Positions 17,511 to 18,816 of a stretch of 25,262 bases of DNA are shown piece after piece (position 1 is the first letter of the stretch; the number at the start of each line of letters is the position of its first letter). Source of the DNA: a virus. Made by a program: the position numbers and the translations under genes. The stretch spans positions 1-25,262 of the IMG/VR virus record IMGVR_UViG_3300031972_000844. One strand, 5' to 3'. The notes beneath the pieces were generated by a model, which saw only the letters and a list, made by a program, of their open reading frames with translations, made no database searches and was not told the DNA's origin.

Positions 17511-18816
17511 TAGCATCCTCCTTTGCTATAGCAACACCTATTTGATAAATTATTTGAGGAACTATTGCGTTTCCGAGTGATTTAAGTCTGTCCACCCTAT
17601 TGGGTATCCCATCAGCCACTCGACCCACGTTGGGTTCAACTGCCCATTGACTCCCATCATTTTTAAACGATTGGGCAATTGTCCTTGGTGTCTCGGTTTC
17701 TCCAACAAGTGTTTCATGCTGTTCTGACCTTTGTAATCTCTCGCTGCTGGAGTCGGTAGCATTTTCTTCTCTAACTCTACTGAAGCTACTTTCTGACCCA
17801 GAGAGTGACCCCTCGTTTTTCCCACGCTTGGTGGAACTGAGTTCATGCTGTCTTTCCAGTCCCTCGCATTCGGAGTTGGCCACATTTTCTTTTGTTCGTA
17901 ATCTACTGCGTCCGCTAACTTCGCCCCGAACTTCTGGCCCGTTCCTTTCCTCGTTACTGAGTAACCCGTTTCCGTTTCCGTCACGTAATCCCCCATTCCT
18001 GGAAAGTAATCTGTCGCTTTCGGAGTCGGCCACTTCTTGTGAGGGTTTTTGCTTTGACTGTCCGTTACTGCTGCATTTAGATTCCATCCGTGCGTTCCCT
18101 TGATCATGCTCGGACTTGGTTTCTCTGCATACGCCATTCTTTCCGATGCTCTCGGAGTTGGCCATAACTTCTCCTCCCTCATGTCCGTTGTTGGATAGCC
18201 GTACTTCACTTGTTCCGCTAGAGATCCTGGTGGAACTGTATTCCTCCCCATGTCGTTTCTCATCTTTTCCCTTTTCTTCAAGGCTTCCTCCGACCTTTCC
18301 GATATGTTTGTCGCACTTGGGGTCAACCATAAGTTTTCCGATAATCCAGACTCTGTCTCTTCTATGGGGCGCTTCGATACCGCAAGCTGGAATAACATAC
18401 GGTTGCGTGGAGTAATTTTCTGTTTCCAAGTCAAGACACACATCATCGAGTGCCATGTTGACGAAGCCAGCAACGTTTTCGATAATGACCCAAGTGGGTT
18501 TCTTGGATTTAATAATTTCAAACACGTACGGCCAGAGGTGTCTGTCGTCTTCTTTTCCTTTGCGATTGCCCGCTTGACTGAAGGGTTGACAGGGGATTCC
18601 TCCGCAGAGGAGGTCGAAGTCTTGAATAATTCTTTCTGGTTCATTTCCTAATTCCTTTAAATCATCATAAATTGGCACGTTAGGCCAATGTTTGTTTAAT
18701 ACTTTACAACAAAACTTATCTACTTCGCAAAATGCTACAGTTTCAAAAGACCCTGTTGCCTCTAATCCTAATGAGAATCCACCGATTCCCGAACATACAT
18801 CTAAAACTTTAATCAT
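17503..18816 (-). CDS. dcm: C5-cytosine DNA methyltransferase (Dcm-type)
   Basis: A 437-aa enzyme that transfers a methyl group from SAM to C5 of cytosine. Motif I is seen at the N-terminus (LDVCSGIGGFSLGLEA) and motif IV with catalytic Cys76 (GGIPCQPFS). Motif VI (IIENVAGF, Glu113), motif VIII (HRRDRVWIIG, 151-160) and motif IX/X (LKSLGNAIVPQIIYQIG, about 411-427) are also present. Between VIII and IX, where the target-recognition domain should be, lies a hydrophilic region with five recurring V/A-D/N-S/P-x-S/C units. No cognate restriction enzyme is seen, so it is an orphan enzyme that probably protects phage DNA. The start overlaps the stop of the 29-aa gene (TAATG). Local base composition is clearly richer in G+C than the neighbours, and the +1 frame is open for 360 codons. 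Confidence 0.93.
   Translation of the reverse strand: MIKVLDVCSGIGGFSLGLEATGSFETVAFCEVDKFCCKVLNKHWPNVPIYDDLKELGNEPERIIQDFDLLCGGIPCQPFSQAGNRKGKEDDRHLWPYVFEIIKSKKPTWVIIENVAGFVNMALDDVCLDLETENYSTQPYVIPACGIEAPHRRDRVWIIGKLMVDPKCDKHIGKVGGSLEEKGKDEKRHGEEYSSTRISSGTSEVRLSNNGHEGGEVMANSESIGKNGVCRETKSEHDQGNARMESKCSSNGQSKQKPSQEVADSESDRLLSRNGGLRDGNGNGLLSNEERNGPEVRGEVSGRSRLRTKENVANSECEGLERQHELSSTKRGKNEGSLSGSESSFSRVREENATDSSSERLQRSEQHETLVGETETPRTIAQSFKNDGSQWAVEPNVGRVADGIPNRVDRLKSLGNAIVPQIIYQIGVAIAKEDASA
17562..18644 (-). CDS. 360-aa overprinted frame inside the methyltransferase gene ('WPTP' protein)
   Basis: This frame lies in the +1 frame of the methyltransferase on the same strand, over its residues 58-418. 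It has an ATG with AAGGA eight bases upstream. The product has an N-terminal part (SGRTCLKLLNP, VLTWKQKITPRNRMLFQL, EETESGLSENLW) that matches my memory of stand-alone phage proteins found next to Dcm genes. Five W/L-P/L-T-P-x-A-x-D/N/E units follow, and the end reads LNPTWVEWLMGYPIGWTDLN, also typical of that family. The same bases encode the catalytic motifs of the methyltransferase. Either both frames are translated, or this is a stop-poor shadow of a GC-richer gene. Function is unknown; a helper of the methyltransferase or an anti-restriction factor is possible but unsupported. Confidence 0.5.
   Translation of the reverse strand: MNQKELFKTSTSSAEESPVNPSVKRAIAKEKKTTDTSGRTCLKLLNPRNPLGSLSKTLLASSTWHSMMCVLTWKQKITPRNRMLFQLAVSKRPIEETESGLSENLWLTPSATNISERSEEALKKREKMRNDMGRNTVPPGSLAEQVKYGYPTTDMREEKLWPTPRASERMAYAEKPSPSMIKGTHGWNLNAAVTDSQSKNPHKKWPTPKATDYFPGMGDYVTETETGYSVTRKGTGQKFGAKLADAVDYEQKKMWPTPNARDWKDSMNSVPPSVGKTRGHSLGQKVASVELEKKMLPTPAARDYKGQNSMKHLLEKPRHQGQLPNRLKMMGVNGQLNPTWVEWLMGYPIGWTDLNHSETQ
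17749..18329 (-). repeat. Five in-phase TGGCCNACTCC-type units in the methyltransferase gene
   Basis: Minus-strand units related to TGGCCNACTCC end at plus positions 18329, 18164, 18032, 17882 and 17759. Their distances are 165, 132, 150 and 123 bases, all multiples of three. In the methyltransferase frame they encode M-V-D-P, M-A-N-S, V-A-D-S, V-A-N-S and A-T-D-S; in the +1 frame W-L-T-P, W-P-T-P (three times) and L-P-T-P. Reading phase is therefore conserved in both frames. Confidence 0.75.

Follow-up and report, generated by a model that had tools for sequence, protein, structure and literature searches.

In a 25 kb IMG/VR record of a marine virus, near genes for phage replication, recombination and the virion, a gene for a Dcm-like cytosine-C5 methyltransferase holds a second long frame (X), open on the same strand and shifted by one position (+1). 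The question raised by this locus is what the second frame encodes: nothing of its own, a separate protein, or a part of the methyltransferase that the first frame lacks. The last is the best explanation. The locus very probably encodes one cytosine-C5 methyltransferase as two chains, alpha and beta, from overlapping frames, that is, as nested genes, comparable to the two-chain enzymes M.EcoHK31I and M.AquI. Computational analysis shows that the DNA codes in two frames, that both are under selection and complement each other in their motifs, and that fused and staggered forms exist in nature. Coordinates (Table 1) are those of the window, the whole stretch of 25,262 nucleotides that was analyzed.

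Table 1. Features of the Dcm/X locus in the window.
Feature	Positions	Strand	Evidence
Dcm frame (alpha chain), C5-cytosine methyltransferase, 437 aa	17503..18816	-	PF00145 E 1.3e-45, residues 2-257; TIGR00675 E 5.8e-37
Alpha catalytic part, motifs I-VIII, residues 1-165	18322..18816	-	Pfam/PHROG match
Alpha linker between motifs VIII and X, S/E/G/N/R-rich, open, little amino-acid constraint	17640..18321	-	codon-position rates
Alpha motif X, LGNAIVPQ	17554..17577	-	sequence; TIGR00675 match reaching residue 427
X frame (putative beta chain), 360 aa, +1 to Dcm, nested in Dcm	17562..18644	-	phrog_1008 E 6.6e-38; selection tests
Shine-Dalgarno-like AAAGGA, 8 nt 5' of X ATG, in Dcm codons D-L-K-E-L	18653..18658	-	SD-like sites, AAG bias in relatives
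X N-terminal region, residues 1-105, over Dcm motifs IV-VIII	18330..18644	-	lowered Dcm position-3 rate
X unit 1, WLTPSATNISERSEEALKKREKMRNDMGRNTVPPGSLAEQVKYG...	18165..18329	-	unit family n=34, incl. E. coli phages Bas48, Aragogtheria
X unit 2, WPTPRASERMAYAEKPSPSMIKGTHGWNLNAAVTD...	18033..18164	-	unit family n=30, incl. Planctomycetes contig
X unit 3, WPTPKATDYFPGMGDY...	17883..18032	-	unit family n=13
X unit 4, WPTPNARDWKDSMNSVPPSVGKTRGHSLGQKV...	17760..17882	-	unit family n=25
X unit 5, LPTPAARDYKGQNSMKHLLEKPRHQGQLPNRLK...	17640..17759	-	unit family n=18
X motif-IX-like tail, LNPTWVEWLMGYPIGWTDL	17583..17639	-	invariant core in 30-member alignment; profile alignment to canonical IX-X

The Dcm frame carries motifs I-VIII, including PCQ and ENV (GGIPCQPFS and IIENVAG, within the PF00145 and TIGR00675 matches), and has neither an in-frame recognition domain nor motif IX; its Pfam match ends at profile position 242 of 324. 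X matches phrog_1008 over X residues 6-212 (E 6.6e-38). The label of this PHROG is just 'DNA methyltransferase', and the overlap and the complementary role go unrecorded there. X alone has no match in Pfam or NCBIfam, and the same is true of X from the staggered loci described below. An earlier sequence-only reading of this DNA had described five WPTP-like units and a LNPTWVEWLMGYPIGWTDL end in the second frame; the five units, in the form (W/L)(P/L)TP, and the end are indeed present, and the phrog_1008 match bears out its mention of relatives with WPTP, TWKxKxT and LFQL traits. It had also placed X over the catalytic motifs and LGNAIVPQ. This holds for motifs IV-VIII and not for the whole of LGNAIVPQ, as the X stop codon (17562-17564) lies inside that motif of alpha. 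No restriction endonuclease gene was noticed among the window ORFs covered by a non-systematic search.

The nature of X becomes clearer from its relatives, which show three layouts: nested as in the window, staggered, and fused in one frame. In the staggered loci (L019, L022, L032, L202, L205, L324) alpha stops near motif VIII and X contains the IX-like tail together with motif X. The fused, single-frame genes include gp70 of Mycobacterium phage ShiLan (L089), L181, L183, L184, L194 and others, and their order is motifs I-VIII, LPTPxAxD units, RLAPAFSEWMMGWPAGW (the IX-like tail) and motif X as IGNGVVPQ. Pfam DNA_methylase aligns to residues 1-356 of fused L183 along profile positions 1-314. 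Fused and staggered forms thus put the units and tail of X between motifs VIII and X of the enzyme, which argues that X is not a separate protein.

Complementarity between the frames is also seen within single genomes. Among 16 bacterial genomes, chosen for holding X and so informative about genes within genomes and not about prevalence, the C5 methyltransferases with a full-length Pfam match (15 scored) have no X-like +1 ORF; the longest reach 34-120 codons, with at least five stops. By comparison, methyltransferases whose Pfam match ends at or soon after motif VIII have a +1 ORF of 180-297 codons in every case (10/10), nine of them with a recognized IX-like tail. Aligned with each other, the X-type and the canonical IX-X profiles stay in register (probability 90%, score 33.1); the highest score among 60 column shuffles was 14.3. 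A search of PDB sequences with the 61-column IX-X profile gave no C5-methyltransferase match, and the homology of motif IX therefore rests on the profile comparison, its position and the fusions. By the IX-like tail, the fused and staggered forms and the profile alignment, the motif IX absent from alpha is supplied by the predicted second polypeptide, X.

Structure prediction adds less. For X alone, AlphaFold2 (AF2) gives a pLDDT of 52, with an N-terminal block at about 80 and a predicted beta hairpin at residues 70-90; given this poor model, the fold lends no support to a recognition domain. The model of fused L183 (pLDDT 60) is aligned by Foldseek along the HhaI and HaeIII methyltransferases with an rmsd of about 16 Å, a match that supports the overall topology only. 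The WPTP units have no recognized similarity to known target-recognition domains.

X might instead be a separate functional protein, such as an inhibitor, mimic or regulator, that overprints Dcm and acts outside the enzyme. It does possess its own start, N-terminal region and repeats, and PHROG treats it as its own family. Against this, motif IX is missing from the Dcm frame exactly where X occurs, the X-type IX-X profile is homologous to the canonical one, and the same units and tail form the middle of fused and staggered enzymes, making a role outside the enzyme very unlikely. The sequence-only reading had gone further along this line, proposing an independent stand-alone family beside Dcm genes that arose wholly by overprinting, and this found no support. 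Among the X ORFs for which a pattern scan had reported no Dcm overlap, the five inspected one by one (L279, L287, L295, L324, L202) turned out to be nested or staggered, the scan having missed divergent Dcm motifs or short overlaps. Relatives annotated alone, when opened, likewise overlap Dcm, as in Mycobacterium phage Bipolar, where gp069 is X and the Dcm frame is unannotated. In addition, the fused and staggered forms show the C-terminal half of X to be homologous to the C-terminal part of C5 methyltransferases (motif IX). Only the N-terminal ~105 residues of X, over motifs IV-VIII, look newly overprinted.

Several relatives vary these layouts. The L181, L183, L184 and L194 fusions still have a +1 ORF of 122-187 codons over motifs IV-VIII, either a relic or translated. 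In L030, L060 and L080 further WPTP units follow the IX-like tail and X extends past the end of Dcm, unlike in the window. In Actinoplanes (L295:2515-4737) no stop closes the X frame behind the IX-like tail, and it continues into a long coding region downstream, perhaps as a fusion or a shared frame.

If X belongs to the enzyme, its chain could be made from its own start or joined to alpha by programmed frameshifting between the frames, giving a single chain. The fusions show that a single chain is workable, and the two frames always stand in one phase. The start site of X speaks for internal initiation. The sequence-only reading had assigned X its own start, AAGGA eight nucleotides before ATG; in the window AAAGGA indeed ends 8 nt upstream of the ATG, and among 60 unique X starts in relatives 59 are ATG and 56 have an SD-like site. 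The lysine of Dcm at this site is encoded by AAG in 48 of 52 cases, whereas AAG makes up 89 of 246 lysine codons in the rest of these genes. The conserved ATG and SD and the AAG bias, a synonymous constraint on Dcm, favor internal initiation over frameshifting. Moreover, to take in both motif IX and motif X, a nested locus would have to shift by +1 and later back by -1, and the constraint on X already covers ~105 codons before any point at which a shift would help. Frameshifting is thus highly improbable, and the preferred reading remains two chains with separate starts.

Both frames are open far beyond what synonymous codon choice would give. When the Dcm protein was held fixed and its synonymous codons shuffled 5000 times, the +1 frame had a mean of 13.8 stops and a minimum of 6; with X held fixed, the Dcm frame had a mean of 12.4 stops and was open in 0 of 5000 shuffles. 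Each frame is closed by such shuffling, so each is kept open in its own right. The sequence-only reading had cautioned that a local rise in G+C lowers stop frequency in all frames. This does not account for X, because the shuffles produce many stops and the +2 frame of the Dcm gene in the window has 30. The Dcm gene of E. coli K-12 has 14 stops in its +1 frame.

Selection on the two frames can be read from codon positions, as the sequence-only reading had proposed. In a +1 overlap, the silent third position of X is position 1 of Dcm, and the silent third position of Dcm is position 2 of X. Substitutions were counted in 38 independent pairs taken from relatives of the window among IMG/VR viruses, which are a sample of the branches and not every one. 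In the non-overlapping flanks, changes at Dcm positions 1/2/3 number 74/47/232 upstream (2063 codons) and 58/26/175 downstream (1099 codons). The C-terminal overlap shows the reverse, 675/239/218 (7829 codons), and 34 of the 35 untied pairs have more changes at position 1 than at position 3; here X is constrained and substitutions fall on sites silent for X. Over motifs IV-VIII the counts are 119/51/213 (3935 codons), and the Dcm silent rate is 0.054 against 0.129 in the flanks, a 2.4-fold cut (p 3e-28, an indicative value, as the summed pairs share ancestry with other pairs). These rates indicate that X is selected over its units and Dcm outside the overlap, with both constrained over motifs IV-VIII. 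Rates and shuffles together reveal purifying selection in both frames, as in a same-strand overlapping gene pair, and the alpha linker is a shadow of the putative recognition array of X. A shadow ORF arising from Dcm composition and codon use, suggested by the locally raised G+C and by an N-terminal likeness of X to its relatives that could partly reflect conserved Dcm motifs IV-VIII, is ruled out by the at least six stops in every shuffle, the reversed codon-position rates in the C-terminal overlap and the missing +1 frame in canonical Dcm genes, and its probability is close to nil.

The overlap is widespread. An unbiased query with Dcm residues 1-165 only (motifs I-VIII) fetched 80 viral loci, and in each of the 80 the +1 frame stays open for 70-623 codons, as far as its own stop or the edge of the contig, with +2 frames of at most 42 codons. 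Frequent +1 stops among close homologues, named beforehand as evidence against dual coding, were looked for and are absent from the 80; with the shuffles and codon-position rates, this establishes the 360-codon +1 frame in a C5-methyltransferase gene as genuine same-strand dual coding. In the 81 loci found with X, the window included, X is always +1 to Dcm. The Dcm/X locus is present in at least 596 IMG/VR stretches and at 345 places in bacterial genomes. The same overlap is found in phages C72C1, Bacteroides BS-TP4, Lacticaseibacillus R9.1, Klebsiella Seifer, Bas48, Bas75 and Aragogtheria, and in phages of Erwinia, Rhodobacter, Komagataeibacter, Synechococcus, Vibrio and Microbacterium. A phosphoadenosine phosphosulfate reductase gene lies a few genes from Dcm/X in four unrelated phages (L081, L083, L087, L089).

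Annotations mostly retain one frame and sometimes label the gene a pseudogene, and the second half is usually absent. For instance, both frames are open throughout in a prophage of E. coli 914033 (L338:2363-3532), which RefSeq lists as two partial pseudogenes. In Paenibacillus phage Redbud the overlap bears the annotation 'g50 internal gene', and both ORFs are annotated as methyltransferase in E. coli phage K1ind2. In Pseudomonas phage PACT201 (L086) Dcm and X are both disrupted by frame changes, from gene decay or sequencing errors. Five X loci with identical scores in an uncultured Roseovarius chromosome (L296-L300) are perhaps repeated prophages or an assembly artefact. A literature search, with most subscription papers outside its scope, found no paper on this overlap in phages.

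The X proteins contain 894 units in recurring families; each protein has 1-8 of them, and their median length is 41 aa. Units 58-81% identical to those of the window are found on X proteins with N-terminal regions of 33-45% identity (L057, L058, L067, L259, L260); other apparent exchanges (among them L137, L131, L001 and L141) were set aside because the N-terminal region had been mis-cut. Similar units on differing N-terminal regions suggest an exchange of units between X proteins. By analogy with the recognition-module arrays of Bacillus phage C5 methyltransferases (PMC12707154), each WPTPxAxD unit may be regarded as a candidate recognition cassette. The same unit families turn up in different phyla, and they are probably specificity cassettes that can be exchanged. 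On balance we lean towards a fuller version of this idea, in which the units are interchangeable DNA-specificity cassettes from a pool common to phages and bacterial phyla, each family naming one methylated sequence, with unit order and number giving multi-specific protection. The catalytic frame would survive each exchange because it is needed there only as an open linker.

In the proposed mechanism, one mRNA would serve both chains. Alpha would bind SAM and carry out catalysis through motifs I-VIII, and would also bring a flexible linker and motif X. Beta (X) would begin at its own SD and ATG inside alpha and comprise a short N-terminal region, tandem ~41-aa WPTPxAxD target-recognition modules and motif IX. 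Upon assembly, X would contribute the DNA-recognizing domain and motif IX to the catalysis and motif X of alpha, and the active enzyme would methylate one or more sequences in the phage genome, protecting it from host restriction. We infer translation, assembly, methylation, one specificity per unit and the anti-restriction role from the features above.

The locus represents a long, clearly selected same-strand nested overlap that is widespread in viruses and bacteria. It also provides a natural experiment, the two frames being constrained in different parts of one sequence. The two-chain reading would account for many phage Dcm proteins that have no recognizable recognition domain. If it is true, cytosine methylation should follow a readable cassette code, which could be tested in laboratory phages such as Bas48, Bas75 or K1ind2.

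Precedents exist for the two-chain form. In M.EcoHK31I, an alternative frame within the large-chain gene encodes the small chain. This two-polypeptide C5 methyltransferase, specific for YGGCCR, has motifs I-VIII and X on the large chain and motif IX on the small chain, with the recognition domain predicted in the large subunit (PMC3404938). The window resembles it in that alpha has motifs I-VIII and X while the second chain, X, has motif IX. The window and its relatives differ in an array of 1-8 tandem WPTP units, which lies on X, often much longer, and not on the large chain; this comparison concerns domain placement. The split enzyme M.AquI has motifs I-VIII on one chain and the recognition region with motifs IX and X on the other (PMC3404938), and the staggered L019, L205 and L324 divide their motifs in the AquI way. 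In contrast, the catalytic frame of the window copy retains motif X and has the second chain nested in it, and long dual coding is not mentioned for AquI in the text consulted (PMC3404938).

A two-chain C5 methyltransferase is therefore already established by M.EcoHK31I and M.AquI (PMC3404938). What appears new is the breadth of the arrangement, the length of dual coding, the tandem units in the second frame, the common unit families and the reciprocal constraint. The C5 methyltransferases of the Bacillus phages SPR, phi3T and H2 combine several recognition modules in one enzyme and thereby evade many restriction systems (PMC12707154); such multispecific enzymes also appear among the references cited by PMC8936443. 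The likeness lies in several modules arrayed in one phage enzyme, the X units being putative modules. The SPR-type enzymes, however, have all modules and catalytic motifs on a single chain in a single frame, whereas in the window and most of its relatives the array lies on a second chain, in the +1 frame, and bears the WPTPxAxD signature.
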